From positions 1 through 64,000 of the forward strand of contig NZ_JAMQON010000004.1 of NCBI RefSeq assembly GCF_031624395.1: a stretch of DNA of 64,000 nt, in the 5' to 3' direction. Below are positions 27,172-62,660 of the stretch, one piece after another. Each line of letters begins with the position of its first letter. The first letter of the stretch is position 1. The notes below the pieces were generated by a model that saw only the letters and a list, made by a program, of their open reading frames with translations, had not been told where the DNA came from and did no database searches. Position numbers and translations under genes: made by a program. Source of the DNA: Halomicroarcula saliterrae (GTDB lineage: Archaea > Halobacteriota > Halobacteria > Halobacteriales > Haloarculaceae).

Positions 27172-27261
27172 TTACACGCTCCGCCTGCCGTTCTAACCGC
27201 TCGCCGGGGTCGAGTTCCAGTATACCTGTTCGGGGAAACCCCGAAGCGGCGCCGCCGAACG
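27172..27261 (-). pseudogene. Decayed DUF4157 fragment behind the first partner gene
   Basis: Immediately after the stop of the partner gene at 27262, the minus strand reads GGAASGFPRTGILELDPGERLERQAERVI. This aligns with the piece of intact DUF4157 proteins right after their HELAH motif (GGAVSMLPQ..LEIDPDERLERQAEQTAERVM). The frame is open but has no start, no HELAH and no tail. I read it as the remains of an older cassette. The same arrangement is seen at 46835 and 58549. Confidence 0.75.
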
Positions 27262-28161
27262 TTACTCCGGTTGCCACGAGGTGATAGTGGCTTCCGACGA
27301 CCAGTAGTTCTGGTACTGCGGACAGAACTTCTGGTTGGTGAACCCGTCGTATTTGCCCCACCCCTGCGCGCGGAAGCCGACCGGTGGCTTGAGACCCATC
27401 AGCAGGAAGCAGTCCCGAATCTGGTAGGCAAGATGCGAGACCACGTAGTGATGGAACGACTCGATTTCCGCCGGGTCGAACGCCATCAGTTCAATCGTGG
27501 CATCGGGGTCGCGTTCCAGTGGGTCCTCACCGCGCACCGTCCGGTCGCTTCCTAACCCGTCGTTGTGGATGTAGTGTAGCCCAGAGACGGCTTCGATATC
27601 AAAGTCGAGCGCGTCGAACGTGTCGGTGGCGAGTGTCTCCTTGTCCGGAATCGCCGGCGAATCCGAGTCCCCCTCGAACCGACCGAGGAACTGGTCCAGC
27701 ACCGGCGGGTCGAATTCGGTCGGGTCTTGACGGAGATAGATATCCTTGGAGTAGACCAGCGGGTCATCAGGATCGACATCGTCGAACGGTAGCTCGACTG
27801 TCTGTCCGTCGCCGTGACTCTCGATTTGAGCCTGTAGGTCCCCGAACAACTCGGTGAACTCTGATTCGGACAAGGAGACGACGGCCGCGAGGGTCGCTGC
27901 AATTCGGTCCGGGTTGCTCGTCGGCGGCACTGTATCATGCCCCCGCTCGCGATAGGCGTACCACTTCGCGTAACGGCGAGCCTGACTTCCGTATTCGGTT
28001 TCCTCTATGGTACGACCTTCCGGCTTGTCAGCGTATCCGTCCTGATCGTGGTACTTGATTTCGCCGTCGAACTCTATCTCAAAGACGTGTTCAATATCGT
28101 TATTGTCGATTACACTCAAACCGACACGCTCGTCATTCTCGCCTGTAATGTGTCCATCCAT
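27262..28161 (-). CDS. Cassette partner protein A (unrecognised family, paralog 1)
   Basis: This 299-aa acidic protein belongs to no family I recognise. It shares its architecture with four paralogs in this window (47102, 57455, 58619, 60301): an N-terminal block ITGENDERVGLSVIDNND, a central QARRYAKWYAYRERGHDT followed by NPDR, a variable middle, and a C-terminal block HLAYQIRDCFLLMGLKPPVGF. No signal peptide or TM segment is seen, so it is probably cytoplasmic. It starts 2 nt after the DUF4157 gene, with a Shine-Dalgarno sequence inside that gene's end. It could be a dedicated chaperone, adaptor or immunity protein for the effector-like DUF4157 protein. Confidence 0.8.
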   Translation of the reverse strand: MDGHITGENDERVGLSVIDNNDIEHVFEIEFDGEIKYHDQDGYADKPEGRTIEETEYGSQARRYAKWYAYRERGHDTVPPTSNPDRIAATLAAVVSLSESEFTELFGDLQAQIESHGDGQTVELPFDDVDPDDPLVYSKDIYLRQDPTEFDPPVLDQFLGRFEGDSDSPAIPDKETLATDTFDALDFDIEAVSGLHYIHNDGLGSDRTVRGEDPLERDPDATIELMAFDPAEIESFHHYVVSHLAYQIRDCFLLMGLKPPVGFRAQGWGKYDGFTNQKFCPQYQNYWSSEATITSWQPE

Positions 28162-28163
28162 TT

Positions 28164-29666
28164 TCAGTCTCTCCTGCTTTTACCGACACCCTGCGAGTCA
28201 GAGGTTTCAGTCTGCCATTCGCCTTGTTCAACCTGCCGTCGAATCTGCTCGGCACGGTCATCGAGCGAGCCACTGGTCCGGTCCCACAGCTCGCGGAGCG
28301 TGACTTCGGCAACTTCGACGCCGATAATCGCTGGTCCGAGTTTGAGGCCCAAGATACCCTTGATGACGTTCCAAGAGAGTTCTTCCCAGTAGCTCGGGTC
28401 GATATTCCCTTTTAAGGCTTCCCGCTGGTCATCTGTCAGCGCGATTTGGTCGAGGTCTTCGCTGATTGCCGAGGAAAGCGAACGAATCTCTGCTCCGAGG
28501 TCCTTCGGTTTGTCTGCCAGCGTTCCGAGCGATGTCTCGGTCTCCATTCCCGGATGCGAATCAGTGTCGGTAGACCGAGATTGATCCATCTCGCCACGGG
28601 CGATGGCCGCGTCGACTTCTGCCTCAGTGAGTTCGCTTTCTTTGTTACCTCTCTCGATGATGTCCTGCGCGACATTGTGGAGGAAACTGATTCGGTTGGC
28701 GTTCTGTGACTCCCGGAATTCGCCCACCTCGCCGGATTCGTTCTCGGCCTCGAACAGCGCAAGCGCATGGAACACCTTGTCTTCTGCCAACCGCTGCACG
28801 TGCACGTCCGAACCGCGCATCCCCGGCACACCGATTACACCACCCCGCATCACCCGCTCGGCCGTTTGTTCGGCCTGCCGTTCTAACCGCTCGTCGGGGT
28901 CGATTTCCAGTGTCCCGGATTGGGGTAGCATCGAGACGGCACCCCCCGTTTGCTGTCTCACGTGCGCTAACTCGTGGGCCAGCACGTGCTGTCCCTCCGG
29001 AGTTTCGGGGTCGTACTCACCGGTGTTGAACGCGACGTGATTCCCGACGGTAAAGGCCCGTGCGTTGATATCATTGCACGCTTTGGCCGCTTGCGGTCCG
29101 GTGTGGATGCGCACGTCGCCCAGACTGTCGCCCATTCGCTCCTCGATGGCCTCCTGAATCGAATCGTCCAGCTGCCGGCCCGGTGACCCGATTACGTCCC
29201 GAACGCTGTCGGGCACACCGGCGTCGCCGGCTTTCGGCGAGTCCAGATGGGCGTCCCGCGAGCGCTGGACAGAGCGGGCGTTCTGCCGCTCGACGTTCCA
29301 TGGCACTTGGGGCGGGCGCTCGCGCTGGCGCTCGCGGAACTGCTCCATGTCCCGGGGTTTGCCCATCGTCTCGACGGTCATCCCCTCGTCGGCCCAGCGG
29401 CGGACCTTCCCGGCGCCGTGGCTGTCGACCAGCCGCTGGACCTGGACTTCCTGACCGTCCCGGTACGGCTCGAACCCACAGAGGTCCGCCGCCTCTTGGC
29501 GGGAGAGCGTCGGCCCCCGGCGCGTCGACGACCCGCCGTCGTCGTCCCGCCAGTCCGGATACCTGTCGTAGTCGAACGAGGACGCCGCCTCGTAGCGGGT
29601 GTCACCGCGCGAGGACGCCGACTGGTCGCTTCGGGACGCACTCTCCCGCTCGGTCCGGAATCCCAT
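28164..29666 (-). CDS. DUF4157 (eCIS-core) protein A, candidate effector
   Basis: This 500-aa protein has a long N-terminal region (1-150, with GFEPYRDGQEVQVQRLVD and RQNARSVQRS also found in the other copies). The DUF4157 core follows (about 155-290, with HVLAHELAHVRQQTGG, a zincin-like HExxH motif, and DPDERLERQAEQTAERVM). The C-terminal tail (about 300-500) is unique in the window and has a hydrophobic helix near 430-453 (IKGILGLKLGPAIIGVEVA). DUF4157 proteins are strongly associated with contractile injection systems and are thought to be or carry effectors. Its last residues (SQGVGKSRRD) recur in copy C, and the same region carries the RBS of the partner gene. Confidence 0.85.
   Translation of the reverse strand: MGFRTERESASRSDQSASSRGDTRYEAASSFDYDRYPDWRDDDGGSSTRRGPTLSRQEAADLCGFEPYRDGQEVQVQRLVDSHGAGKVRRWADEGMTVETMGKPRDMEQFRERQRERPPQVPWNVERQNARSVQRSRDAHLDSPKAGDAGVPDSVRDVIGSPGRQLDDSIQEAIEERMGDSLGDVRIHTGPQAAKACNDINARAFTVGNHVAFNTGEYDPETPEGQHVLAHELAHVRQQTGGAVSMLPQSGTLEIDPDERLERQAEQTAERVMRGGVIGVPGMRGSDVHVQRLAEDKVFHALALFEAENESGEVGEFRESQNANRISFLHNVAQDIIERGNKESELTEAEVDAAIARGEMDQSRSTDTDSHPGMETETSLGTLADKPKDLGAEIRSLSSAISEDLDQIALTDDQREALKGNIDPSYWEELSWNVIKGILGLKLGPAIIGVEVAEVTLRELWDRTSGSLDDRAEQIRRQVEQGEWQTETSDSQGVGKSRRD
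28169..28175 (-). promoter_or_regulatory. Ribosome binding site of partner A
   Basis: AGGAGAG on the minus strand, inside the last codons of the DUF4157 gene, lies 7 nt before the partner ATG at 28161. An equivalent AGGAGGG precedes partner C. Such strong sites are uncommon in haloarchaea and imply coupled translation. Confidence 0.6.
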
Positions 29667-29687
29667 CGTTGGCCGTTTTTCACACCG

Positions 29688-29737: not shown

Positions 29738-31864
29738 TCAGGAGTCCGAGGCCTGCTCTCCGGGCCGGGGCGTGAGGACGGTGTCCTCGCCCAGCGACGC
29801 CTCGCCCATGGCGAAGGTCCGGGAGGTGAGGCCGGTGTTGATACCGAGAAAGGAGTTCTCTCCGAGCGCGAACTCCCCCTCGATAGAGACGACGGTGCCC
29901 TCGACGTGGGCCGGCCGCTCGGTATCGACGATATCCTGAACCATCCGGGTCTGTTCGTCGGTTTCGAGCGCGTCACAGAAGACGGCAAAGGAGCGGCCAG
30001 CCGAGAGGAAGTCGCCGTACTGGCGGTCCACGACGGCGTCGTCGATACTGTCGAGGTCGGTCCGCTCGATGAAAAAGAGGCGATAGTCGGAGCCATCGTC
30101 GGCCGCGACGGGGCCGGTCTCGCCGGTGCCGTCGGTCGCCGACGGGTTCGCGTGGCGGAGGTAGAGGCGAATCAGTTCGAGCAGGCCCGCTCTCGTCCCG
30201 CGCTTGCGGTACAGTTCCGGCGCGCGGGCCAGCAGCTCCCGCCGGGCGCTCTCGGGCCACTCGCGGCCGATGTCCGCGGCCAGCCACCCCTCCAGCCACG
30301 ACAGCGACTCGCTTGGAGCGCCGTGGGGGTCGAAGTACTCGCCGACGGACTCGATGGTCCGCTCGACGTCGACGAAGGAGGTCTCCATCACGGAGAGGAA
30401 CTGTTCGAGGAAGGCCGCCGACTGCTGGTCCTCCTGATACAGCTCCGGCATGTGCCGGAGGTAGGAGGTCCGCGGACAGTACGCCCGGACGGCGTCGACC
30501 AGCGGCGAGGCGTCGGGCGTGCCGAGCAACTCGACGGCGACGTAGAGGTACCGACCGCTGGCGTCGTCGAGGAGGACGTCCTGTGGGTCTATCACCTCGC
30601 TGGTGGTCCACTCGTCGGCCGCCTGCGTCGCCAGTTCCGTCGTGGCCCGGTCCTGAAGTGACGCGACACTCGCCGGCGTCCACCCCGGAGCCATGAACGT
30701 CAGCGACTCCGGGTCGGCCGAGGCCAGCTCCCACACCGTTTCGACGCCGGCGTTGCGCAGCATCGCCGCGTTCCGGTCGGTCATCCCGTCGAAGCTGTCG
30801 GCGTCGAGCGACGACAACACCGGTTCGTCGGTCGCCAGATACCGGAGTCGGACCTGCGTGCTGGCCGACGAGCGGACGATGTCGAGGGTGACGCGGTGCC
30901 AGTCGATAGCCGTCGTCCCCGAATCGTACCGGAGGAAAGCGGTGCCGACGTGGCGGTCGTCCTCCGGGTGGGCCGCGTACTCGTGGACCTCCTCGAACCC
31001 GCGGCAGTGGCGTGACTCGCCGGCGACGACGTAGAGCGTCTGTGCGTCGGGGTCGCCGGCCTTGGCGACCATCTCCGTGGCCGCCCCCTCCAGAGCCACT
31101 CGTCTGTCGAACGCGCCGGTCGCAGCGTCGTAGACGAAGATGCCGTGGCCCGACCCGTCGTCGTACCGGCCGGAGACCACGGGCTGGTCGCCCAGGATGG
31201 TCAGACACGACGGGGTGAACGCCTCACCGTCGGCCTCGAACCCGGTGGCCCGCGTGGGGCCGTCTGCGTCCGGGCCTGCCTCGGGACGCCGAATCGAAGG
31301 GCCACCCTCGTCGTCGTCCAGCACGTAGGGCTCGCCGTCACGGACCGCGATGTCGAGCGGCGCGACGAGGTCGTCGGTCGCCACCGGCGAGGCGGTGCCG
31401 GCCCGGTCGACGGCGACGAGGTCGCCGTCGTCGAGGACGTAGATCGTCCCGTCGGCGTACGCCATCGCCGTCGGGTCCGTGAGGTCGGGTCCGAGCGTGC
31501 CGACGACGCGGTGGAGGTCCGTCGAGAGCGCCGTGATACTCCCGTCGGCGGCGTCACAGACGAACACGCGGTTGCCGCTGGCACAGATAGCGGTCGGCTC
31601 CGCGAGCGTCCGATCGGTGCGCTTGAGCAGGCGCTCGCGAGTCTCCGTCGTCGGGTCGTACTGGTAGACGCCGCCCTCGGTGCTGACGGTGTAGAGCGTG
31701 TCGTCCGGTGCGACGACCAGGTCGTGGACGCCGTCTCTGACGTCGAACCGGCGGGTCGTCGTCTGCGTCCTGAGAACGACTCCGCCGCCGGCCACCTCGA
31801 CGTTGTCCATCACGCCGTCCGCCCAGTCCGTCTCACTCGTGGTCGTCGCGTACGAGAACTCCAT
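29738..31864 (-). CDS. Baseplate/tail protein I-like protein with N-terminal beta-propeller
   Basis: This 708-aa protein combines three parts. Residues about 20-300 form an NHL-type propeller (blades such as HDLVVAPDDTLYTVST and GNRVFVCDAADGSITAL). Residues about 370-425 look like a helix-hairpin-helix segment (NAAMLRNAGVETVWELASAD). Residues about 470-610 match phage tail protein I (LPELYQED-type start RHMPELYQEDQQSAAFLEQF, then WLEGWLAADI and ELYRKRGTRAGLLELIRLYL). Tail protein I homologs join the baseplate to the fibre network. It is the last gene of the spike-baseplate operon, 2 nt after the baseplate J-like gene. The propeller may be a surface-binding module (inference). Confidence 0.85.
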   Translation of the reverse strand: MEFSYATTTSETDWADGVMDNVEVAGGGVVLRTQTTTRRFDVRDGVHDLVVAPDDTLYTVSTEGGVYQYDPTTETRERLLKRTDRTLAEPTAICASGNRVFVCDAADGSITALSTDLHRVVGTLGPDLTDPTAMAYADGTIYVLDDGDLVAVDRAGTASPVATDDLVAPLDIAVRDGEPYVLDDDEGGPSIRRPEAGPDADGPTRATGFEADGEAFTPSCLTILGDQPVVSGRYDDGSGHGIFVYDAATGAFDRRVALEGAATEMVAKAGDPDAQTLYVVAGESRHCRGFEEVHEYAAHPEDDRHVGTAFLRYDSGTTAIDWHRVTLDIVRSSASTQVRLRYLATDEPVLSSLDADSFDGMTDRNAAMLRNAGVETVWELASADPESLTFMAPGWTPASVASLQDRATTELATQAADEWTTSEVIDPQDVLLDDASGRYLYVAVELLGTPDASPLVDAVRAYCPRTSYLRHMPELYQEDQQSAAFLEQFLSVMETSFVDVERTIESVGEYFDPHGAPSESLSWLEGWLAADIGREWPESARRELLARAPELYRKRGTRAGLLELIRLYLRHANPSATDGTGETGPVAADDGSDYRLFFIERTDLDSIDDAVVDRQYGDFLSAGRSFAVFCDALETDEQTRMVQDIVDTERPAHVEGTVVSIEGEFALGENSFLGINTGLTSRTFAMGEASLGEDTVLTPRPGEQASDS

Positions 31865-31866
31865 CG

Positions 31867-33792
31867 CTACCGCCCCCCGTCGCCGGCCGCCATCGACAGC
31901 TCCGTCGTCACGTCGACGACGGCGAACAGCTCCCGCGGTCCGATGGCGATTGTGTCGTCTCTCGTCGTCCCGCCGTGGGCCGTGATATCCACGTCGGAGA
32001 CGTAGTCGATACCGTCGAGGTCGGCCACTCGCTCCGCGATGTCGGCGGTCGACAGCGAGCGACCGAACGGCCAGCCCCCGGCTACGAGCGGGTGGACCAG
32101 CGAGTCGAGGGTCGCCCGCACGTCGGCCTCGTAACCGTCGTCGGTGTACCGAGGGTGGGCCTGCCCGGAGACGGTCACGTCCAGCCCGACGTAGGTCGGC
32201 CCCGTCACCGTCACGCGGTCCCCCAGCGTGGCGCGCTCGGTGACGTACTGCTCGACCGTGCCGAGAAAGCCCTCGCTGGGGGTCGGTCGGGGAACGTCCG
32301 GTGGTGCGTACGGGACCACGACGACAGTGACGGTCTCGCCGTCGACGACGACGTTGGTCTGGCCGACGCGGACCCCCGGCGTTCGGGCGGCCAGCGTCTC
32401 GTAGTCCGTTATCGTCACGCCTCGGTCGGGGGACCGGAGATCGCGTCGGAGACGCTCTACCGCCCCCGTGATCGTCTCCCGGTCGCGGCCGCCCGTCGCA
32501 GCACCGGCGGCCGCCACATCGAGGTCACCGAGCAGCGTCCCCCCATCGAGCGTCGTTCCGGGCGACTCGAACTGCCAGACGGCGTCGGGCGAGACACAGC
32601 CGTCCTCGCCGCCGCCGTAGACGTAGTCGGCGGTGACCGTCGCGTCGGCCGGCGGCACCCGCCCCTGTTCGCCGTCGCCGAAGGTGACCCGACCGGTCTC
32701 GCGGTCCAGCCGGTAGTGGGGGTCTGTCGGGCCGGACGCGTCGAAGTCGGCCACTTCGACGAAGGGCGCACCGTCGACCCGTATCTCAGCCGAGAACACC
32801 GGCGTGTGTTCCAGTTCGTAGGTCTGGCCGTTCAGCGCGGTCGGCTCGCCCAGTCCCGACACTTGCGAGAGCGTCTCGTCGCCGACGTGCACGCGGTGGC
32901 TCGCAGCGACCGTGTTCGGTTCGATGGCGTCCAGCTGGGGGGGTATCTCGTAGCCGGCCCGCTCGACGCGACAGCGAATCCAGACGTGCGCCGAGTCGGT
33001 CACGTCGAACGGAGCCCCGTCGTCCATCCGGGGCGCGTCGTCGGGCGCGAACAGTTCGATAGCGCCCCCCTCGTAGAGCGTCGTAGTTCGGTCCTCGGCG
33101 ACAGTCAGGGGCCGCCATCCGTCGGCCCCGGGCGGCCGGTACGCCCACTGGAGGGAGACGGTCGGCTCGAAGTCGGGATCGCCCGGGTCGGCTGGCGTCG
33201 GCGCCGGGAGGTTCTCGTCGTGGTAGTTCGCGACCAGCGTGAGCGAGCGGCCCGCGGCGAACGGGTCCCCGTCGAAGCCGAGATACAGCTCGTCACCGCG
33301 TTCGACGGGGTTGCCGAAGGGGCGGTAGAACATGCCGTCGGTGTTGTTCTCCTGACTGTTGTCCGTCACGCCGTTCCGGTCGGCGGTGACGAGCCTCGCC
33401 AGCGAGGCGTCTGTCAACACCAGGTCGTGGTCCGTCTCGAAGCGGTAGCGTTCGTCGGTGCCGTCGGTGACCAGCAGGCGGCTCCCGGCCGGGAGCCGTT
33501 CGCCGGCGGCAGACGACGGCGGCGAGAGCACGACGGGGGCCGTCGCTGGCTCCTGTAACCGCCGGTGGTACCCCATCAACTGGAGGTACTTCTCGCGGTG
33601 GGCGTCGGTTATCTGGTCGAGCTGGTAGGTGTGTGTCTCGGTCACCCACGCGAGGACTTCGAGAATCGTGATACCCGGGTCGTGTGGATTGAAGTCCGTC
33701 CACTCCTCGGAGTAGGCCGGAATCAGCTTCTTGGCCTGTTCGAGATACGCCTCGTAATCCCTGTCGTCGAGGTTCGGTACGTCGATACCCAT
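31867..33792 (-). CDS. Baseplate J-like wedge protein 1 (gp6/Afp11-like)
   Basis: This 641-aa protein matches the putative baseplate assembly family of contractile systems, related to phage baseplate J and T4 gp6. The N-terminal ILEVLAWVTETHTYQLDQITDAH near residue 45 and the C-terminal GAVERLRRDLRSPDRGVTITDYETLA (about 435-460) followed by TNVVVDGETVTVVVVP are family hallmarks. It would form part of the baseplate wedge around the spike. It is separated by 3 nt from the 1056-aa wedge gene upstream. Confidence 0.88.
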   Translation of the reverse strand: MGIDVPNLDDRDYEAYLEQAKKLIPAYSEEWTDFNPHDPGITILEVLAWVTETHTYQLDQITDAHREKYLQLMGYHRRLQEPATAPVVLSPPSSAAGERLPAGSRLLVTDGTDERYRFETDHDLVLTDASLARLVTADRNGVTDNSQENNTDGMFYRPFGNPVERGDELYLGFDGDPFAAGRSLTLVANYHDENLPAPTPADPGDPDFEPTVSLQWAYRPPGADGWRPLTVAEDRTTTLYEGGAIELFAPDDAPRMDDGAPFDVTDSAHVWIRCRVERAGYEIPPQLDAIEPNTVAASHRVHVGDETLSQVSGLGEPTALNGQTYELEHTPVFSAEIRVDGAPFVEVADFDASGPTDPHYRLDRETGRVTFGDGEQGRVPPADATVTADYVYGGGEDGCVSPDAVWQFESPGTTLDGGTLLGDLDVAAAGAATGGRDRETITGAVERLRRDLRSPDRGVTITDYETLAARTPGVRVGQTNVVVDGETVTVVVVPYAPPDVPRPTPSEGFLGTVEQYVTERATLGDRVTVTGPTYVGLDVTVSGQAHPRYTDDGYEADVRATLDSLVHPLVAGGWPFGRSLSTADIAERVADLDGIDYVSDVDITAHGGTTRDDTIAIGPRELFAVVDVTTELSMAAGDGGR

Positions 33793-33795
33793 CCG

Positions 33796-36700
33796 TCAGT
33801 CCCCCATGGTCACTCGCAGGCGATGTGTACCGCTACAGACCAGCGTGTTCTGGGGGAGCGCCTCCTCGGCCTGCCGGCCTGTCAACGCCCGGCGTTCCCC
33901 GCTGGTTTCGACGTACGTAGTCACGTCGAGCGAAGCCGCGACTTCGGCGATACCGTCGATTCTCTCGACCAGCGTCTCGGGGTCGGGGAGCGTCCCGAAC
34001 TCCCAGCCACCGCCGTCGCGCCCCGTCAGCGGGTGCAGATAGTCGTCGAGTTCCCGGCGGATACGCTGTTTCAGCAGCGAGACGCTCTTTACCGTCGGTG
34101 CGCGGACGGTCGCCTCGACCGATATCTCCGCGTATCCCGGCCCTCGGACGACGATATCCATCTCGTCGGACTCGACGACCGTCGCCGGCGCGTGGTCGGT
34201 GAGGGTGTCCCGGACCTGGTGTTTCAGCGCCATCGACGGGACGGGTTTATCCCGTTCGGTCTCCGGGACGATGATGACGGTCACCCTCGTCTCCCCGCCC
34301 GCCGCTGTCGTCTCGCACTTCACGGTCGAGAGCTCGCGGAACTCGGAGAGGGCGACCTGCTCGTAGTCGGCGGGCGTCACCGCTCGGCGGCGGTGTTTCA
34401 GCCGGTTAGCGGACCGCGAGACCAGTGCCTCGATAGACTCCGTGTCGGCGCCGCCGTCGGCCGACTCCGGGTTCGAGACGTCGTCGACGAGCGAGATGGG
34501 GCTTTTCAGGTCGGTAATCGTCCGGGCGTCGACGTTGCCGTCGCTGCCGCCCCCCGTGGTGTACGTCGCACGCACGTTGTCCTGTCCGCTGGGGGGTATC
34601 GCCCCGGCGTCACCGTCACCGAAGTCGACGGTGCCGAGCGTCTTGTTGACGACGTAGTGTCGGTCCGTCGGCCCCGAATCGAGGAAGTCGTCGACGCGCT
34701 GCCAGCGCACCCAGAACGCCGCGAGGTCGCCGCGTTCGTCGGACACCCGGTCGACCGCGTCGGGCCGGTCCGCCAGCAGGTCGCGTCGCTCGCCGGCCGA
34801 CAGCGTCTCGGACTCGTCGACCCAGACGTCGATGCTCATCATGGGAGCGTGGGCACATCGAAACGACTGGTCGTGCGAGCCGTCCGAGGAGCCGAGCACC
34901 TCGTCCTCGACGGTCCGCTTGTTGTAGGCCCAGCGCGTGTTGAGATGGAGCCCTTCGAGCACCGGCGGGGCCGTGGTTCGGCTCGTTCGGTCGGCGGCGG
35001 TCTCGGCCGTCGCCGAGTCACGCGAGCCCTCGGCATCGTCCGGACGGTCGAACTCGTCCTGTGTCGTCCGCACCCGGATCCAGTGACGGCGCCGCCCGAA
35101 CAGCTCGAACGCCGTCGTCTCCGACGGGACGGTCAGCGAGACGATGCCGCGCTCCGTGAACCCCCCGGTTCGGTCGCGGACGTCCAGTTCCGACCACGAG
35201 AACTCCGAGGGTGCCGTACAGTACTCCCACTCCATCCCCGGGTCGAACGACTGGGGGTAGGTCGTGTCCTCGACGGGAGCGAACAGGGTCAACGGACCGT
35301 CGCGGAGCGCGTCGTCGAACCCGAGATACAGTGTCTGGCTCGTGTCGGGGAGGTCACGGAACGGGACGTACGCCTCGGCGTGGTCGGTGAGGTCCTCGCT
35401 GTACGCGGCGTTGTTGTGCCGGAAGACGGCGTCGAACGGCTGGCCGCTGTGTTCGTAGTGGACCGTCACGTCGCCAAAGACCGGCGGGTCGAGGTCACCG
35501 TCGGTGCCGTCGAACCCCTCGACCTCCGGGACGTTCAGTCCCGGCTGACCGTAGTTGCCACTGACCAGCCGTGCCCGAACCCAGACGTTCTCGTGACCCG
35601 AGACGGTCGTCGCCTCGATGTCGTCGGGGACACTGAACGTGACGGTGCCGGCCTCGTGGAACGTGTCCGTGCCGTCCTCGATGTCGCCCAGTTGCACCCA
35701 CCCCTCGCCGTTCCAGTACTCCCAGGAGAGCCGCGGCGCGCCGCCGAGGACGCCGACGTCCGTCCCCCGTCGTCCGGACGCCTCACCGTCGGTTGTCGTA
35801 CCCCCCTCGCCGTCCGCGACGGTAACCGGACCGCCCGGCGGGGCGAACTCCAGCGTGGCGGTGCCGCCGGGTTTGGTGAACGCTTCCTCGCAGGCCACGT
35901 AGAACGCGGTCGGCGGCTGGGGCAGCTCGCCAAGCGGCTTGAGCGGCCCCTTCTCGGCCGACAGCGGCACGTCGTTCGACAGCATGAAGTCGGGATCGAG
36001 CCCCGAGGCGTCGTCCGTCTGGCCCGCGTGCAGCGACAGGTCACGCATCGACACCGAGAGGAGGTCCGCGTCGTCGTCGACGAGCCGACAGCGAAGCCAG
36101 CGGCTCTCGACGCCGTTTATCGTGTGTTCGACGACCTCGCCGGGGAGCTCGAAGGTGGCCTCGTAGGCCGACCCGTCGCTCGCCGTGTGCGCGCTCGCCG
36201 CCTGCGACCCCGCCCCGTCGTCACCGGCCTCGACCCGGTCTCGGAGTCGCTGTTTGTACGCTTCGATGCTGCTCTCGGCGGCGCGGTCCCGACCGGGCCG
36301 GGGCGGGCGGAGCCGGTGCCACCCCTCCTCGCCGGTGGCGTCCTCCCCGTAGTACTCCCAGACGACGGCCTCGGCGAAGGCGTCGTTGTCCACGTCGAGT
36401 TCGGCGGTGACGGCGAACGACGAGCCGGGGTTGAGAGTCAGCGTCTGCCCGCTGGCGACGTAGAGGTGGTGTTGCTGGTCGTCCGTCCCCTCGAACAGTT
36501 CGACTGCGTCGCCGTCGACGACCGCCGAGTGGTCGACGATACTGTCGGCCGCCGGGTCGACGGCGACGGCGTCGGTCAGCGTCGCCCCGGTCGCCTCGAA
36601 CCCGCGGTCGCGCGGGAGCTCGAACAGCTGTGTGTCGTCACCCGACTCCGAGACGGCCTGTGTCCCGCCGGGGATGACCACGTTCCGGTCGAGGTCGTCG

Positions 36701-55888: not shown

Positions 55889-55910
55889 TTTTATCGGGAC
55901 TACAACGGTG

Positions 55911-55922
55911 TCAATTTATTTT
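55911..55922 (-). promoter_or_regulatory. TATA-like box of the sheath operon
   Basis: AATAAATTGA on the minus strand lies 24-33 nt before the sheath ATG at 55888; a second AT box (GATTTATATC, about 55929-55940) lies further upstream. The whole 55889-56016 gap is AT-rich. Confidence 0.5.
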
Positions 55923-56016
55923 TGTGAACGATATAAATCTTGCTCTCTATTCTATTGATTTAACTCCCTATACTCAGGATAGCATTAAATATCAACCCGT
56001 CGAGACCGCCGGCTGT

Positions 56017-57258
56017 TCACTCGTCGGGGACGACCTCGAGGAGGAAGTCGAGGGAGTCCGCGGCCTCACACACCTCGTCGTGCGCGTCGACCTGGTCGAG
56101 CAGTGATCGGTCCTCCTCGACGGCCGCCTGCAGGTTCGAGACGGACCGCAGGTAGTTCTCCAGACTCTCCTCGGTGGTTATCGGTTCGAGGTGGTCGCCC
56201 AGTTCGACGAGCTGGTCGAGGAGGCCGTCCAGTTCCGGCTCGTAGACCGCCCGTTCGGTTCGGATGCCGTCGAGTTCTCCCTCCGACTTCTCGACGATTT
56301 CGCGCGCGAGACGGCTCGCCTCGCCGCTCCGGGCCTCCAGCTCGTCAGCCAGACCGTCGAAGAATCTGATTCGGTCCTTGACCGTCTTGCGCATGACGTA
56401 CCGCGAGAGCGACTGGCGGTCCGCCTGGAGCGTCTCCACCTTCGCTTCGAGCCCCTCGATGGCGTTCAGAATCTCGTCGACGTCCTCGGGGACGTCCATC
56501 GGCTCTTTGGTCACCGGCGTCTGATGTGGGTTGTCCGCGTCGGCGAGGTGCTCGACCAGCACGTCGAACAGGAACTCGCTGTCGAAGACGACGGGCCGCG
56601 GCGGGGCCCCCTCCATGGGAACCCAGCTCCCGTCGGGTGTGCTCTCGAACGCGCCGATATAGACCGCGCCACCGGTGTCCGCACGGGCTGGCCGGTACTG
56701 ACGATATCGCTCCAAAAGTCGTTCGCGGAGCGCCTGCGGGTCGAGACTGTCGGACTGGAGCCCCGATATCTCGATATCCCCGTCGGTCCGTTCCGGGTCC
56801 GGCGGCGTCTCCCTGTAGGTCAGCGCGAACGACTCTACGGCGCGGTTCGGAGCGGTGTCGTCGTCGACGGCACCCTCGGTGTCGGGGACCGGAATCGTCT
56901 CCATCGCCGCCTCGGTGAACTCGATGTACAGGTATATCTCGTCTTCGGCGGGTATAGGGACAGATTTCGTCGTCACCTGTTCGACGACCACCGGTCGCCC
57001 GTGCCCGTCCAGTGCCAGCCCCGGCGTGAGGGTGACATCGAGCCCGTCCCCGCTCTCGGTGACCGACTGGACGTCGATACCCCGAACGACGCCTTTCCCG
57101 TTCAATAGTCGGTTGAGCGTGTGTAAGCGCTCGGCGTGGTACGTCTGTTCGGCCTCCATGTCGCGGGGCGTCATCAGCTTCCCCTTGAAATATCGGTTCT
57201 TCTGGAACTGCGAGAGCTCCGGTGTGTCCGAGTCCGAGTAGTTATCGTCGCGAGGCAT
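56017..57258 (-). CDS. Conserved contractile-system accessory protein with coiled-coil C-terminus
   Basis: This 413-aa protein begins SQFQKNRYFKGKLMTPRDME and EAEQTYHAERLHTLNRLLNG, then KGVVRGIDVQSV (about 15-65). Similar openings occur in accessory proteins of bacterial contractile loci, to my recollection. A beta-rich middle (LDVTLTPGLALDGHGRPVVVE) follows, and the last 150 residues are helical with heptad-like repeats (VDEILNAIEGLEAKVETLQADR). It may be a fibre or baseplate attachment protein (inference). The gene is alone between the sheath operon and the orphan partner, on the same strand as the sheath. Confidence 0.7.
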   Translation of the reverse strand: MPRDDNYSDSDTPELSQFQKNRYFKGKLMTPRDMEAEQTYHAERLHTLNRLLNGKGVVRGIDVQSVTESGDGLDVTLTPGLALDGHGRPVVVEQVTTKSVPIPAEDEIYLYIEFTEAAMETIPVPDTEGAVDDDTAPNRAVESFALTYRETPPDPERTDGDIEISGLQSDSLDPQALRERLLERYRQYRPARADTGGAVYIGAFESTPDGSWVPMEGAPPRPVVFDSEFLFDVLVEHLADADNPHQTPVTKEPMDVPEDVDEILNAIEGLEAKVETLQADRQSLSRYVMRKTVKDRIRFFDGLADELEARSGEASRLAREIVEKSEGELDGIRTERAVYEPELDGLLDQLVELGDHLEPITTEESLENYLRSVSNLQAAVEEDRSLLDQVDAHDEVCEAADSLDFLLEVVPDE

Positions 57259-57454
57259 ACGAATGTAAGTATATTGATTGTAAGGTCGTTTACTGATAAA
57301 ATATTCGGTCAGTCGTCGGATGAAAGCCGTTCCGGCCCGTCGTCGCGAACTGGACTGTGTAGCGGCGAGACCGCACAGTATTTATTTCGCCGGTAGCCTT
57401 GTGATAGCAACCGACCTGCACGGGACACCGGACAACCACACGCTATTCAGCATC

Positions 57455-58444
57455 ATGAACGTCACCGACCACACCGAACACGGCCGGGAAATTACGCTGC
57501 GTATCACCGACCACACCGACGCCGACCACCGTCTGACACTCACGCGGACGGGGACAGTAACCGACCACTGGTGCGATCAGTACCCCAGCGACGACGACCC
57601 GACGCCGCTCGAACGCGAACGGCTTGCCCGGGCTGAGCGGTTCGCCAGGTACTACCTCAAACGGCGGTCCGACGTCGAGGCCGTGGAGCCGTACACCGAC
57701 GGCATCACCGACCCTGACCCGCTGGTCGTCACTGCACTCGTGCTGGCCGCGATGTCACAGGAGACGCTCACAGAGCGCCTCGGAACCTACTACGAGCAAC
57801 TCACCGCGTCGCAGGCCGACGACAGCCCGCCGGTGTCGCCGCCCCAGACCACAGCGGCCGCGGAGTGCCAGTCCGTCGAACAGGACATCTGCCTCACCGC
57901 CCCCGCCGAGGCGGTGGCCCAGTTGAGCGACGTCCTACACGAGATAGACGGACTGGCGACTGTCCGCCACGTGCTCGACGTCTGTCCGGACCGCGGGGAT
58001 TCGGACCTGCTCGAGCGACTCGGTCGACTCCTTCCGACCACGGCGACCGACGGCGATGGGGCCGGGCGCGGCGAGCGGTTCCTGCGGCTCGCCTCGCCGC
58101 TACGGGTCCACTGGGAGACGGACGGCCCGACCCGTGTCGAATACGGTGACGACATCGGTTCCGACGCGGACACCCCCATCAGCGCGCGCCTCCAGCTGAC
58201 GGCCGCCCATCGACCGGTCATCTCCGTGGCCGCCTTTCAGCGGACGCTCGTCGACCACCTGCGATGTCAGGCCCGTGACTGTTACGTGGGAATGGGCCTG
58301 CGGCCACCGAGCCACCTCCGGGTCACCGGTCGGGGCATCAGCGCCTGCACCGACCGATACGAGCATCTCGACACACTCCAGAACTACCACGACGACCACG
58401 CCATCGTCGACTGGACGCAACTGGGCGCACGCCCGGACCGATAG
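57455..58444 (+). CDS. Orphan cassette partner protein (unrecognised family, paralog 3)
   Basis: The protein is 329 aa from ATG 57455. This start aligns its beginning (VTDHTEHGREITLRITDHTD) with the ITGENDERVGL block of the paralogs; the frame is open to 57320, with a TATA-like AGTATTTATT near 57378. It has AERFARYYLKRRSD for the central block and HLRCQARDCYVGMGLRPPSHL for the C-terminal block. It is the only family member on the plus strand and has no DUF4157 gene beside it. It is more divergent in the N-terminal half. It could be a partner that lost its effector, or a constitutively made adaptor or protective copy. Confidence 0.75.
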   Translation: MNVTDHTEHGREITLRITDHTDADHRLTLTRTGTVTDHWCDQYPSDDDPTPLERERLARAERFARYYLKRRSDVEAVEPYTDGITDPDPLVVTALVLAAMSQETLTERLGTYYEQLTASQADDSPPVSPPQTTAAAECQSVEQDICLTAPAEAVAQLSDVLHEIDGLATVRHVLDVCPDRGDSDLLERLGRLLPTTATDGDGAGRGERFLRLASPLRVHWETDGPTRVEYGDDIGSDADTPISARLQLTAAHRPVISVAAFQRTLVDHLRCQARDCYVGMGLRPPSHLRVTGRGISACTDRYEHLDTLQNYHDDHAIVDWTQLGARPDR

Positions 58445-58548: not shown

Positions 58549-58614
58549 TCAGGGCAGCATCGACACCGCGCCGCCGGCTTGTTGACGGACGTGCGCTAAC
58601 TCGTGTGCGAGGAC
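58549..58614 (-). pseudogene. Decayed DUF4157 fragment behind partner C
   Basis: The minus strand reads VLAHELAHVRQQAGGAVSMLP and then a stop, an almost perfect copy of the DUF4157 core around HELAH, beginning 4 nt after the stop of partner C. Only 21 codons remain and no tail follows. Position and content match the fragments at 27172 and 46835. Confidence 0.85.
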
Positions 58615-58618
58615 CCCA

Positions 58619-59587
58619 TTACGCCTCTGCCCTGACAGTGTCACGGTCCCAGTCGATGTCCGCGTCCGGATCGTGGTAGGGCTGATAGAGGTCGTAGTAG
58701 TCGTACCACGTCGCGTGGTCGTAGCTGCCCATGCCCTGAATTCGGAACTCCGACGGCGGTGTCACACCCATACCGAGGTAACAGTCCCGAACCTGACAGA
58801 ACAGCCCGCGAACGAGCGACTGCTGGAACGCGTCGATGTTCTCGGGCTCGAACGGGAGCATCTCGATTCGGGCGTCGGGTTCGCGGTCGATGCCCGGTCG
58901 GTCGGTCCACGCCGTGTGGTACTGGCCCGCCGCGTCGTCCCAGTGGACGTGGACGCCCGAAACCGCCTCGATCCAGAAGTCCTCAGCAGTCGCCGGGAGG
59001 TCGCTCCCGGATTTCCCGGCGATGTCGTGAGCGTCCGCGAGTAGACCCAGCAGCGACCGGTCGTTCACACCGCCTCTCGCTAGATCACCCAGATACTCCC
59101 GCACCTCGGCAACGTCGAGCAATTCTTCCAGCATCTCGACCTGTCTGTCGTCCAGCCCGAGGTAGACATCCTGCTGGTAGGTGACGTTTGCCTGGGAGAC
59201 GCCGTCCGGGAGCGTGACGGGACGGGGCGAGTCCGTCGAGTGACTTCGAACCTGTCTGTAGAGGTCGCCGAAATACGACTCTACGCTGTCGGTACTGAGG
59301 CCGGCGGCCACGAGAGCCACCCCAAGGATTCGGTCGGGGTTGCGGTGCGGGTCGAGCGTTTCGTAGCCTTTCTCCCGGTAGACGTAGTACTTCGCGTATC
59401 GCCGGGCCTGGTTGACGTGTTCGTTCTCTGCGTTGGTACGTTCGGCCGGGTCGTCCGGGTAGCCGTCCTGCTCGTGGTAGTTGATTTTACCGTCGAACTC
59501 CATCTCGATGACGTGCTCAGCGTCGTTGTTATCGATGACACTTAAACCAACGCGCTCGTCGTTTTCGCCCGTGATGATCCCATCCAT
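58619..59587 (-). CDS. Cassette partner protein C (unrecognised family, paralog 4)
   Basis: The protein is 322 aa from ATG 59587; a TTG two codons earlier is less likely, because an AGGAGGG lies 7 nt before this ATG. It is the closest relative of partner A at the N-terminus (ITGENDERVGLSVIDNNDAE, then QARRYAKYYVYREKGYET). The C-terminal block is GLFCQVRDCYLGMGVTPPSEF, followed by YYDLYQPYHDPDADIDWDR. The middle differs strongly from the other copies. It starts 2 nt after the truncated DUF4157 gene C. Confidence 0.8.
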   Translation of the reverse strand: MDGIITGENDERVGLSVIDNNDAEHVIEMEFDGKINYHEQDGYPDDPAERTNAENEHVNQARRYAKYYVYREKGYETLDPHRNPDRILGVALVAAGLSTDSVESYFGDLYRQVRSHSTDSPRPVTLPDGVSQANVTYQQDVYLGLDDRQVEMLEELLDVAEVREYLGDLARGGVNDRSLLGLLADAHDIAGKSGSDLPATAEDFWIEAVSGVHVHWDDAAGQYHTAWTDRPGIDREPDARIEMLPFEPENIDAFQQSLVRGLFCQVRDCYLGMGVTPPSEFRIQGMGSYDHATWYDYYDLYQPYHDPDADIDWDRDTVRAEA

Positions 59588-59589
59588 CT

Positions 59590-60288
59590 TCAATCCCTCC
59601 TGCTTGCACCGACACCCTGAGACTCGCCCACACCAGTCTGAGCCTCGACTTTCTTGACCGCACGGTCGGAGATATGACTCACCCAGTCGGTTGGTAGTTC
59701 TGCAGGTCCGATATCGTGGAGCGCGGAGCGGACCTGAGTGACCTGCCGTTGCTGGTCGTACGCTTCGTCGGTGACGTTCTGGATGAACGGACCCGCGATC
59801 GGTATAGCACCCACGGCGCCAGTCGTCGCCTTGGCCGCCATGTCCTGCTTGCTGAACGCTCCGCCGTGGAACCCGAGATACTCGGCGACTCGCTTCGCTA
59901 TCGACGAGATTTGCCCGTCGCTGCCCTGCAGGTCCATCTGGTCGAACTCTTCGCGGGCCTGTTCCAGTTGCTCCGCCTCCGGCATCCGCTGGACGTGCAC
60001 CTCACCCCGCCGCATCCGCTGGATACCCAGCGTTCCCCCGCGCATCACCCGCTCAGCCGTTTGCTCGGCTTCCCGTTCGAGGCGTTCGTCCGGGTCGATA
60101 GCCAGTTCGCCATCCTGTGGCAGCATCGACACCGCACCGCCGGTCTGCTGGCGCACGTGCGCGAGTTCGTGGGCCAACACGTGCTGTCCTTCCGCAGATT
60201 CTGGGTCGTACTCGCCCCGGTTGAACGCGATCTGATTACCCACGGTGAACGCACGGGCGTTGATGTCGTCGCAGGCCGTGGTAACCAT
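59590..60288 (-). CDS. Truncated DUF4157 protein C (core plus tail, no N-terminal region)
   Basis: This 232-aa protein begins MVTTACDDINARAFTVGN, so the first 170-180 residues of other copies are absent. HELAH is at residues 40-44 with HVRQQTGG after it. The unique tail (about 115-232) has a glycine-rich hydrophobic stretch ATTGAVGAIPIAGPFI near 150-170 and ends SQGVGASRRD as copy A does. The ATG lies 12 nt after the partner D stop, so it may be translated. It may be an orphan tip module kept for recombination, or a dead fragment. Confidence 0.75.
   Translation of the reverse strand: MVTTACDDINARAFTVGNQIAFNRGEYDPESAEGQHVLAHELAHVRQQTGGAVSMLPQDGELAIDPDERLEREAEQTAERVMRGGTLGIQRMRRGEVHVQRMPEAEQLEQAREEFDQMDLQGSDGQISSIAKRVAEYLGFHGGAFSKQDMAAKATTGAVGAIPIAGPFIQNVTDEAYDQQRQVTQVRSALHDIGPAELPTDWVSHISDRAVKKVEAQTGVGESQGVGASRRD
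59595..59601 (-). promoter_or_regulatory. Ribosome binding site of partner C
   Basis: AGGAGGG on the minus strand lies 7 nt before ATG 59587, inside the end of the truncated DUF4157 gene. It decides the start of partner C over a TTG at 59593. Confidence 0.65.
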
Positions 60289-60300: not shown

Positions 60301-61245
60301 TTACACCGGGGAAACGTAGCCGGAGATACGGGCTTCGTGGTCGAAGTACGGTTCGTAGAAGTCGAAGTGACGGTATTTGCCGGTGTACTTGTACCGGCCG
60401 TGGCCCAGCACTTTGTACGGTTCGGGTGGCTCAAGCCCCATACCAATGTAGCAATCCCGAATCTGACAGACGAGGTTGTGACCGACGACGTAGCGGAAAT
60501 CGTCGCACTCGTACGTCGACGGGAGGATCTCGATTCGGGCATCGGGCTTGCGGTCGAACTGGTCCTGACTTTCGATTGTCCGTTCTTCGTTCGTGTCTTC
60601 GTAGTACATCGTATCGATTCCCGATACGCCTTCGATAGTGAGTTCTGTCCACGTTACGTCAGACGTCTCACTGGTTCCGCCGACGAGTGACGTAGCTTTC
60701 GAGAGCATCCCCTGGCCGGTCGCCGTTGCAAGCTCTTCCCGTTCAATCTCGCCAATAACTTCCGTCGCCGGTCGGTCAAGTTGTGACTGAATCGTGTCGA
60801 GGTCGTCCTCGAGATAGACGTTTTGCTTGTAGATCAGGAACTCCTCCTCGTAGACCTCGTCCGGGAGATCTAACGGCGGCAATGCGTCGGTCCGGTCGTG
60901 ACTCACCGATTGTTCGTGCAGCGTCTGGAAGTACTCCCAGAACTGCTTGTCCGTGAGATCCAGTAGTGCGATCAGTACCGCCGCAAGTCTGTCTGGATTC
61001 TCCGATGGTGGGACCGTGTCATACCCTTTCTCGCGGTAGACGTGATACCGGGCGTATCGACGGGCTTGCGAGAATGTTTCATCTTCAATATTGCTTCTGT
61101 CTGATGGGGTATCGGGGATAACGTCCTCCTTGTGATGGAAGATATTTCCCTCTGAGTCCAAACCAATCTCATGCTCATCTCCACGATTGTCTTCGACAAG
61201 GAGCCCGACTCCTTTTTCATCTTCACCAACGATTTGTGCGTTCAT
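60301..61245 (-). CDS. Cassette partner protein D (unrecognised family, paralog 5)
   Basis: This 314-aa protein shares the family architecture: a diverged N-terminal block (VGEDEKGVGLLVEDNRGDEH), QARRYARYHVYREKGYDTVP centrally, and NLVCQIRDCYIGMGLEPPEPY near the end, then a YRHFDFYEPYFDHEA tail. It is acidic and soluble. It begins 2 nt after DUF4157 gene D, with a GAGGT 8 nt before the ATG. The truncated copy C starts 12 nt after its stop. A role as chaperone, adaptor or immunity factor is possible. Confidence 0.8.
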   Translation of the reverse strand: MNAQIVGEDEKGVGLLVEDNRGDEHEIGLDSEGNIFHHKEDVIPDTPSDRSNIEDETFSQARRYARYHVYREKGYDTVPPSENPDRLAAVLIALLDLTDKQFWEYFQTLHEQSVSHDRTDALPPLDLPDEVYEEEFLIYKQNVYLEDDLDTIQSQLDRPATEVIGEIEREELATATGQGMLSKATSLVGGTSETSDVTWTELTIEGVSGIDTMYYEDTNEERTIESQDQFDRKPDARIEILPSTYECDDFRYVVGHNLVCQIRDCYIGMGLEPPEPYKVLGHGRYKYTGKYRHFDFYEPYFDHEARISGYVSPV

Positions 61246-61247: not shown

Positions 61248-62480
61248 TTAGGACCTCAATCCAGAGAACCAGTCACTTTCTTCTACTCCTTTGTCTCCCT
61301 CACGTTGCCCCTGCTCGTCATCATCAGCACCAAGCAGTCGGTCTTTCACTCGGGAGTAGGCATCATTAATCGTTTCTTTCCCAGCAGCGACACCAAAGCT
61401 AACTGTGCCGGCAGCGATAGCAGGTACTGCGACCTCGGGATTGGTAGCCGTGTTTGCGAGCTGGTCTTGCAAGGCGGGTTGGGCCATCGCACGACCGGCA
61501 GCAATTGTTGCCGCAGTTACGCCCGTGCCCATCATAGCAGTCGCCTTCTCCGACCAACCCGAGTGGACCTCATCCTTGAGTGAACTGAGTTCCTGTCGAA
61601 GGTTGTCGACTTCTTCTTTGAGTTGTCGGACCCCCGAATAGTTGTTCTCGACGCTGACCTCCGCTGGTGTCCGCTGAATGTGGATATCCGATTTCCGCAT
61701 CCGCTGGATACCCAACATCCCCCCGCGCATCACCCGCTCAGCCGTTTGCTCGGCTTCCCGTTCGAGGCGTTCGTCCGGGTCGATAGCCAGTTCGCCCTCT
61801 TGGGGCAGCATCGACACGGCTCCACCGGTCTGTTGTCGCACGTGCGCTAACTCGTGGGCCAGGACGTGCTGGCCCTCTTTTGAGGAGGGGTCGTACTCGC
61901 CGCGGTTGAACGCGATGTGGTTGCCGACGGTGAAGGCGCGGGCGTTGATGTCGTCACAGGCTTTCGCTGCGGACGGCCCGGTGTGGACGCGCACGTCGCC
62001 GAGGCTGTCGCCCATCCGGTCTTCCATCGCGCGCTGGATGCTCGCGTCCAACTGCTGGCCCGAGGAGGAAATCACGCTTCGGACCGACTCAGGCACTTGC
62101 GTATCGCCTGCCTTCGAGTCGTTCCGGTAGGCATTGTGACTGCGCTGGACGGACTTGGCGTTCTGCCGTTCGATATCTTTTGGCACTTCGGGCGGCCGCT
62201 CGGCCTGCCGTTCGCGAAAGTCCGCCATGTCCCTCGTCTTGCCCATCGTCTCGATTGGCATGCCTTCGGCAGCCCACTGGCGCACCTGGTCGGTACCGTG
62301 CTGTTGTGCTAACCGTTGCAACACCGTCTCGTGTCCGTCTCGGTACGGTTCGACCCCGAACTGCTGACCCTCGCCGGAATCTCGGCCGGCCGACCGGCGC
62401 TGGTCCCCGTCGTCTTCGAGGGGGTCCATCGCCGCCGACCCGGCCTTCTCTCGGGCCTCGCTCACTGACCGGAAACTCAT
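61248..62480 (-). CDS. DUF4157 (eCIS-core) protein D, candidate effector
   Basis: The protein is 410 aa from ATG 62480 (MSFRSVSEAREKAGSAAMDP). The N-terminal 200 residues are almost the same as copy B, which implies a recent duplication or gene conversion. The core has HVLAHELAHVRQQTGG at about 203-218. The unique tail (about 280-410) starts with a coiled coil (VRQLKEEVDNLRQELSSLKD) and then hydrophobic glycine/alanine-rich helices (MMGTGVTAATIAAGRAMA, AVPAIAAGTVSFGVAAG). The frame runs upstream to 62618, but the B homology fixes this start. The tail may act on membranes (inference). Confidence 0.87.
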   Translation of the reverse strand: MSFRSVSEAREKAGSAAMDPLEDDGDQRRSAGRDSGEGQQFGVEPYRDGHETVLQRLAQQHGTDQVRQWAAEGMPIETMGKTRDMADFRERQAERPPEVPKDIERQNAKSVQRSHNAYRNDSKAGDTQVPESVRSVISSSGQQLDASIQRAMEDRMGDSLGDVRVHTGPSAAKACDDINARAFTVGNHIAFNRGEYDPSSKEGQHVLAHELAHVRQQTGGAVSMLPQEGELAIDPDERLEREAEQTAERVMRGGMLGIQRMRKSDIHIQRTPAEVSVENNYSGVRQLKEEVDNLRQELSSLKDEVHSGWSEKATAMMGTGVTAATIAAGRAMAQPALQDQLANTATNPEVAVPAIAAGTVSFGVAAGKETINDAYSRVKDRLLGADDDEQGQREGDKGVEESDWFSGLRS

Positions 62481-62502
62481 TGTTGGTTTAATTTTATACT
62501 CT

Positions 62503-62515
62503 GCGTATTTAATTG
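62503..62515 (-). promoter_or_regulatory. TATA-like box of DUF4157 gene D
   Basis: CAATTAAATACGC on the minus strand lies 23-35 nt before ATG 62480, equivalent to the elements before copies A and B. Confidence 0.55.
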
Positions 62516-62579
62516 TTTGTTGTATGGCAGAACACGCAACTGAGGGGCGGCCGGGGGAGCCCGACCGAAGACTGAGAAA

Positions 62580-62660
62580 ATAGCATATGGGAACACCGTC
62601 GGTCATCTGCTGGATCAAGTTGATATTCTTAACACCTTAGTGAGCGAACGCCGCAATGGA
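62580..62660 (+). pseudogene. Decayed copy of the first 27 codons of the injection-system ATPase
   Basis: From 62580 the plus strand reads ATA (for the ATPase's ATG) then AYGNTVGHLLDQVDILNTLV, which lines up codon for codon with AYENTIDHLLDELGCLDLLV of the ATPase at 49433. The upstream segment 62521-62579 also resembles 49373-49432 (shared gcagaacacgcaa and aggggcggccggg). The start codon is lost and homology ends near 62660. It marks the end of the duplicated block. Confidence 0.85.

Follow-up and report, generated by a model that had tools for sequence, protein, structure and literature searches.

Putative polymorphic DUF4157 effectors and tail-specific immunity partners around a haloarchaeal contractile injection system

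Introduction

Toxins with a constant DUF4157 domain, bearing an HExxH motif, and variable C-termini were predicted in haloarchaea, with Halogeometricum borinquense named, in an account of the Photorhabdus virulence cassette secretion system (PVC-SS; Zhang 2012, PMC3482391). DUF4157 proteins of H. borinquense were later reported to be secreted in dependence on a contractile injection system (CIS) and to be lost from the secretome of a sheath mutant (Zachs 2024, PMC11566945). According to that report, two of five secreted DUF4157 proteins and two genes of the interspacing region are toxic in Haloferax volcanii, and the downstream gene prevents toxicity in all four H. borinquense cases tested. 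Here we describe a 64,000-nucleotide stretch of Halomicroarcula saliterrae DNA (contig NZ_JAMQON010000004.1, positions 1 to 64,000; the window), in which a near-complete CIS of haloarchaeal type, recognised through Pfam and NCBIfam, occupies 27262-62480 with its structural genes in two blocks and is accompanied by DUF4157 genes followed by members of one unnamed partner family. We consider it likely that the locus encodes a CIS working in the mode of a type VI secretion system (T6SS), with polymorphic DUF4157 effectors, tail-specific immunity partners and cassette displacement. The polymorphic effector reading had been put forward in an initial annotation of the window and is supported, though it is largely published already (PMC3482391, PMC11566945). 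What is added here is a putative immunity family that tracks the effector tails, evidence of displacement and a link to the membrane anchor; literature searches found no account in print of a tail-tracking partner, of the displacement in Haloferax larsenii, of the anchor-partner link or of homologues behind membrane carriers.

The closest described relatives are the archaeal T6SSs of H. borinquense and Haloferax elongans (PMC11566945), which have in common with the window two structural blocks, an anchor with six transmembrane (TM) segments, DUF4157 proteins and downstream partners, some of them preventing toxicity. We find the partner family in H. elongans ATCC BAA-1513 as well (loci L013, L016 and L062). 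The published systems have one interspacing region and one upstream gene, whereas the cassettes of the window stand at three places, and the passages of the report that describe these systems are silent on a single partner family, tail tracking and cassette displacement. Parts of PMC3482391 describe many PVC-SS toxins as lacking adjacent immunity and archaea as lacking most immunity superfamilies, whereas here each tail has a member of an immunity-like family behind it. In accounts of toxins of extracellular CISs (eCISs; Geller 2021, PMC8213781; PMC11297309), DUF4157 likewise marks CIS cargo and the toxin lies at the C-terminus or next door, but passages of these papers describe immunity as mostly missing and propose DUF4157 as a chaperone, whereas the cassettes described here do have a partner, which goes with the tail. 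In the T6SS of Vibrio cholerae, a newly inserted effector-immunity pair is described as moving the old immunity gene downstream (Kirchberger 2017, PMC5361080). Compared with what is given there, part of the carrier core stays with tail and partner in the displaced unit of the haloarchaeal arrays, the carrier being an archaeal DUF4157 protein; illegitimate recombination with one homologous anchor was proposed for V. cholerae, whereas the haloarchaeal arrays have core fragments on either side. Few cases of antagonism between archaeal cells have been demonstrated.

Results and discussion

Cassettes in the window and in other haloarchaea

DUF4157 corresponds to the present-day Pfam family eCIS_core (PF13699), and genes bearing it lie on the minus strand at three places around the CIS blocks: A; B; and D followed by C. 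The whole domain is found in effector genes A (28164-29666, E 1.6e-30), B (48052-49332, 8.2e-32) and D (61248-62480, 2e-31), the starts of B and D having been set by similarity to other copies. Effector C (59590-60288) lacks the first part of the core, its partial match running from profile position 26 or 31 to 78 of 79. The four DUF4157 genes counted initially are thus three full genes and a fourth that is 5'-truncated, besides which there are two core remnants on the same strand, one with an in-frame stop (46885-47028) and a short core-like one (about 58552-58659). The tails occupy approximately 28167-28790 (A), 48055-48522 (B), 59593-59985 (C) and 61251-61670 (D). As first claimed, they are without BLAST similarity to one another at E 1e-3; their cores score 0.81-0.98 of self.

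Behind these effectors, also on the minus strand, stand partner A (27262-28161, 299 residues, putative immunity), partner B (47102-48052, 316 residues), partner C (58619-59587) and partner D (60301-61245). The stop-to-start spacing is 2 nt before 28161, 59587 and 61245, and the genes overlap by 1 nt at 48052, which agrees with the spacing first noted. The single unrecognised family proposed at the outset also holds: the other cassette partners are homologous to partner A (32, 47 and 34% identity), and the four had no Pfam family at E≤1. A fifth member (57320-58444, plus strand, homology from 57455; 25% identical to partner A) is an orphan without a tail gene, for which Pfam gave DUF2868 alone, at 0.088 and below its cut-off. 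The five had no NCBIfam match at 0.01, and PADLOC returned nothing for the six proteins submitted, partner A included.

An alignment of the partners, scanned against genome contigs, yielded 69 loci, all with haloarchaeal record titles. Taken with the window and two loci of its own genome (overlaps unmerged), they contain 147 core open reading frames (ORFs), in 107 of which a partner starts -30 to 400 nt past the stop; of the 40 without such a partner only five have the whole core profile, a deaminase-tailed copy discussed below being one. No core ORF lies directly upstream of 57 of the 164 partner ORFs, in some cases simply for lack of further sequence in the locus. Once exact duplicates are removed, the cassettes that include the core end and have a spacing of -10 to 20 nt number 100, from 60 loci, and their commonest spacings are 2 nt (31 cassettes), -1 (15), 5 (13), 3 (11), -4 (10) and 1 (8). 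The core is 5'-truncated in 26 of the 100, and locus L154 (genome G174) is an array of at least three cassettes whose later copies retain about 26-29 core residues before each tail.

Among the 4950 possible pairs of cassettes, similarity at E 1e-3 is found for 99.7% of cores, for all partners and for 387 tail pairs. Single linkage at this threshold places the tails in 14 groups, the largest of which takes in 61 of the 100, so that a description of the tails as simply unrelated had to be refined. A stricter cut gives 26 groups, and because profile comparison joined only 8 of their 325 pairs at probability ≥50 (none with reversed profiles), common descent of all tails is not supported. A constant N-terminal carrier joined to a variable C-terminal tail, the architecture of polymorphic toxins, is what these 100 cassettes display.

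Partners diverge with tails

Partner similarity follows tail similarity across the 100 cassettes (Mantel r 0.70, reached in 0 of 2000 permutations) and hardly follows that of the cores (r 0.057, 122 of 2000). Partial Mantel tests gave 0.70 for tail and partner given the core (0 of 1000) and 0.02 for core and partner given the tail (286 of 1000). In a thinned set of 57 cassettes without close tails the correlations were 0.47 (0 of 2000) and 0.022 (754 of 2000), respectively, and with tail matches at E≤1e-6 only (279 forward pairs, 0 with reversed tails) the tail-partner value was 0.68. A similar tail was found with the nearest partner in 82 of 90 cassettes and with the nearest core in 13; when the same locus was excluded these counts became 82 and 14 of 90, and the thinned set gave a weaker result (29 and 4 of 48). 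Tracking is best at partner residues 121-180 (r 0.57 and 0.56), and the most variable segment is 151-180 (mean identity 0.09). This pattern matches the one expected of a conserved scaffold with a tail-specific face, and suggests such an arrangement for the partner. That a single partner family stands behind unrelated tails would follow from the partners diverging in step with the tails. Through this covariation the adjacent gene appears specific to its tail, as an immunity gene of a polymorphic toxin would be, and the assignment of the unnamed family as tail-specific putative immunity is supported.

A tail-binding protein need not be an antidote. The partner could be an effector-specific chaperone or adaptor that binds the tail, for example by shielding a hydrophobic segment, and loads the spike, rescue being a by-product of masking. 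The tight translational spacing suits this explanation, as does the service of one soluble family to many tails, some of them with long uncharged segments, and tail tracking is equally expected of it. Pfam gave no match of the partner to DUF4123, DUF2169 or Eag, which we take to be T6SS adaptor or chaperone families, although a distant relative could escape this search.

The genome has a further DUF4157 gene with the same core, about 300 kb from the window (L119, G000:C4, about 361-364 kb). Its tail matches Toxin-deaminase (PF14424, 6.4e-13) above the cut-off, and the gene is followed by SUKH-1 (PF09346, 1.2e-15), Colicin_immun (PF09204, 3.4e-12) and a truncated core remnant; no partner of the unnamed family adjoins this full-core copy. 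Since a known toxin class is paired here with a known immunity class, we argue that the unnamed partner is likewise the immunity class of the unnamed tails. That SUKH, a known immunity fold, should stand in the partner's place also speaks against the chaperone. Alternatively, the partner might bind the common DUF4157 core as a general CIS loading factor, which would fit the presence of one family throughout and of a core in all 41 genomes with a strong partner match (see below), and the conserved orphan partner taken alone could play such a part. The deaminase copy, with a full core and no such partner adjoining, and the near-absence of partner-core correlation beside the strong correlation with tails make this core-binding factor highly improbable; we rejected it as the principal reading because partners do not track cores.

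Cassettes are displaced between strains

The expectation that tails should vary between relatives while cores stay conserved holds in H. larsenii, where the strains JCM 13917 (L015, L022) and NCIM 5678 (plasmid record, L082) have syntenic CIS DNA; apart from the swapped parts, its identity is 96.8-98.9%. At two sites the core segment (the last 200 residues up to its end) is 97 and 98% identical, the tails 26 and 21% and the partners 40 and 35%. On the ATPase side, 96.8% identity runs through the core and ends about 100 nt after it; JCM 13917 has a different tail and partner there, and then a core fragment bearing the tail and partner of NCIM 5678. This displaced pair is 95.9% identical to that of NCIM 5678 over 1948 nt (tail 99%, partner 97%). 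At the other site (core 98%, tail 21%, partner 35%), 98.9% identity resumes after the swapped part. In H. elongans, the first core, which is continuous with the CIS side, bears a tail and partner 94% and 90% like the NCIM 5678 pair that stands behind a truncated core. Taken together, the swaps in these two species indicate that cassettes move between the first and the displaced position, and the exchange of tails between close strains, with displaced cassettes left behind, is as found in polymorphic toxin loci. Judged by its sequence, cassette C of the window, with its truncated core behind D, is a displaced pair of this kind, and at 46885-47028 and 58552-58659 the remnants would be the scars of earlier events. 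The retention of partners behind carriers that are displaced and truncated, a position in which a loading factor could do little, and the many partner ORFs without a core ORF directly upstream (some of them at locus ends) count further against a chaperone.

Some unrelated tails are alike over their last ~12 residues, and their partners over the first ~20. In the window this is seen in cassettes A (28130-28220) and C (59560-59650), whose tails are unrelated but whose junctions are about 80% identical at the nucleotide level. The common tail/partner junction may serve translation as a signal, or recombination as a second handle.

Distribution with the CIS, its anchor and a second carrier

In an even sample of 391 genomes of the class, matches were found to CIS_tube in 47, to eCIS_core in 52, to the partner (E≤1e-5) in 54 and to the anchor in 34. 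The best partner match is below 1e-30 in 41 genomes and between 1e-13 and 1e-20 in 13, and the cut for a strong partner (E<1e-30) was chosen after this gap had been seen. All 41 strong-partner genomes have a core and 34 have CIS_tube, compared with CIS_tube in 13 of the other 350. This contrast bears on the proposal that the arrays are not CIS cargo but toxin-antitoxin or selfish modules in decay, lying beside the CIS by chance. In its favour are the frequency of remnants and truncated copies and the occurrence of divergent relatives in genomes without a CIS, but the association with CIS_tube and the loss of DUF4157 proteins from the H. borinquense sheath-mutant secretome (reported in PMC11566945) leave this proposal with very little probability. 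Of the partner-bearing genomes without a CIS_tube match, G388 has a CIS ATPase beside its array at L155 (tblastn), whereas in G174 a CIS ATPase beside array L154 was not confirmed by tblastn.

Partners go with the anchor. The anchor is present in 33 of the 47 CIS genomes, all 33 of which have the partner, and among the 14 without it the partner occurs in one (G346, a fragmented assembly). The class-wide scans scored some first-look candidates per genome; when the 14 anchorless genomes were searched again and all candidates scored, the partner was found in one and the anchor in none. DUF4157 is still present in 12 of the 14, and in five of these 12, at one gene each, no partner-family gene follows it. 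Because the two CIS clades of the published tree differ by the anchor (PMC11566945), the anchor-partner link may go back to a single evolutionary change, and its Fisher value is not independent evidence.

The 13 weak-partner genomes had no CIS_tube or eCIS_core match. In five of them (one locus each, L113-L117), tandem divergent partners alternate with variable genes. At L113 and L117 the array is preceded by a full-length carrier with five to seven TM-like segments, the two being 55% identical over 277 residues and bearing Ala/Gly-rich tails. Later copies retain a piece of the carrier (63.7% identity over 248 residues within L113; 67.5% over 123 between L116 and L117), and the multi-TM arrays, as read from these repeats, follow the same truncated-carrier logic as the DUF4157 arrays. 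We tentatively call these carriers VirB6/TrbL-like, a label for which Pfam gave no match; a coupling-type ATPase (PF10412, 1.1e-29) lies in one locus, L116. Comparison of the multi-TM-carrier tails with DUF4157 tails by hhalign gave probability ≥50 in 11 of 168 cases versus 6 with reversed tails, and BLAST also matches reversed tails; with the control nearly as frequent, homology of the two sets of tails is not supported by this comparison. Homologues that follow non-DUF4157 carriers in genomes without a CIS, and anchorless CISs that have DUF4157 genes without a partner, are both difficult to reconcile with a loading chaperone, which on all the evidence we regard as unlikely.

Proposed mechanism

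We propose that the DUF4157 protein is a carrier, the constant core of which would be recognised by the machine, as the published CIS-dependent secretion suggests. The variable tail would be the toxin; for the four window copies, both this and their travel with the particles are put forward from sequence and by analogy. The gene directly after would encode a soluble immunity protein that recognises that tail, a putative binding to which the tail-partner covariation points. Firing is probably directed from the membrane at cells in contact, and siblings would therefore be hit and immunity be needed. New pairs of tail and partner would arrive by recombination with a break at the core end, and the older pair, pushed downstream behind a core fragment as seen in H. 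larsenii, would retain a partner that could go on protecting. In this way displaced partners would protect against neighbours whose weapon is still the older tail.

Several observations weigh against this mechanism. No toxin domain was matched by Pfam in the four window tails, and the rescued H. borinquense pairs, likened to the window partner family by description, may belong to another. Since the cassette loci were gathered by a partner search, the linkage of core and partner in them is a biased rate. The core-tail correlation is tiny (r 0.061), but none of 2000 permutations reached it, and no tracking of the tail is seen over partner residues 1-30 (r 0.03). A tail-binding chaperone would equally produce tail tracking. 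Seven strong-partner genomes are without a CIS_tube match, and the anchor-partner association may reflect only the two CIS clades, in which case its Fisher value overstates it. Finally, the orphan partner is tail-less yet conserved, for which simple immunity does not account.

A broader proposal, on balance somewhat doubtful, is that the partners form a dedicated haloarchaeal immunity superfamily without a recognised relative, evolving in lockstep with a large class of helical, often membrane-active tails and common to DUF4157 and multi-TM carriers. It would be maintained only with weapons fired by living cells, while anchorless and presumably released injectors would use DUF4157 without antidotes. 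Such a match of anchor and immunity would explain why only some DUF4157 systems carry antidotes. If the partner is tail-specific immunity, its sequence can serve to find toxins that escape every domain library: each partner would point to the toxin gene before it, and the 69 loci already list about 100. For the two H. larsenii strains, the displaced cassette predicts one-sided killing.

Tails, partner fold and the orphan partner

The longest uncharged run reaches at least 20 residues in 58% of the 100 tails, compared with 2% of partners, 6.5% of shuffled tails and 11.5% of CIS protein segments, and the median run is at least 20 in 15 of the 26 tail groups and lower in 11. In the four window tails the longest runs are 36, 20, 18 and 8, and some of these tails look membrane-active. 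The uncharged, Ala/Gly-rich segments of many tails lean towards a membrane target, though one window tail is without such a segment; with 11 of 26 groups and the window runs of 18 and 8 below 20, pore formation as a general reading was kept as a lean only. A tail model built from 17 sequences was poor (mean predicted local distance difference test score, pLDDT, 61.2) and all helical.

The fold model of partner C is confident (pLDDT 91.3, predicted template modelling score 0.90). Foldseek found no match to it in the PDB at E≤1e-3, and a second fold comparison gave a best Z of 6.7 over residues 1-76 only; as the fold was barely compared beyond these residues, we do not claim it as new, and the modelled partner may be related by fold to known immunity families such as SUKH and Colicin_immun. 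The orphan partner at 57320-58444 is divergent in orientation to the neighbouring CIS13 gene. At the corresponding position, H. larsenii and H. elongans have counterparts 58-59% identical to it, whereas its identity with the 100 cassette partners has a median of 29%. Its relatives occur in 14 of the 391 genomes, all 14 of them anchor-bearing. It may have been domesticated for some general task.

The injection machine and its surroundings

The first CIS block (29738-46662) holds baseplate, spike, hub and tube/LysM genes, a low-complexity protein and a membrane protein, all on the minus strand. By Pfam it encodes tail protein I (Tail_P2_I, 29738-31864), a baseplate wedge (Baseplate_J, 31867-33792) and a larger one (Baseplate_J, 33796-36966), a gp25-like baseplate protein (36963-37361), the PAAR spike tip (37365-37658), the spike (Phage_base_V, 37662-38405), the hub (Phage_GPD, 38402-39430) and a CIS_tube and LysM protein (39433-40101). 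In the second block (49433-57258), the CIS AAA ATPase (49433-51598) and a Pvc16_N protein, the tube terminator or cap (51674-52261), lie on the plus strand. On the minus strand are two inner tube proteins (gp19; 52262-52726 and 53689-54141), a 176-residue CIS-cluster protein of no family (53007-53537), the contractile sheath (54173-55888, 82.7% identical to that of H. larsenii) and a CIS13 family protein (56017-57258; NCBIfam NF053767, 1.2e-169), Pfam having recognised the ATPase, Pvc16_N, tube and sheath proteins. The parts named in the initial annotation are confirmed by Pfam and CIS13 is added to them, but its description of the machine as complete goes too far, for no window CIS protein matched a tape-measure family in Pfam and a 1779-residue protein (40102-45441) is without a family. 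This last protein, which had no match in Pfam or NCBIfam, is rich in Ser, Thr and Pro and lies between the LysM protein and the anchor; we note it as a candidate tape measure. A tape measure was likewise not recognised in the H. borinquense CIS, according to the passage of PMC11566945 on that cluster.

The membrane protein (45502-46662), a putative anchor, has six TM-like segments, the last ending at residue 233 of 386, and a C-terminal part of about 150 residues. It fits the published description of the anchor Hbor_38620 (in the part of PMC11566945 that describes it), to which it is likened by description. The window machine, known here from its genes alone, is probably a membrane-anchored haloarchaeal CIS of the T6SS mode.

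Directly past the last cassette lies a 698-residue TraG/VirB4-like ATPase (AAA_10, 3.2e-7; window 62799-63947 onward, L118:2802-4895). The proteins beyond it appear by eye to be membrane-bound or secreted, and a conjugation-like module may adjoin the island.

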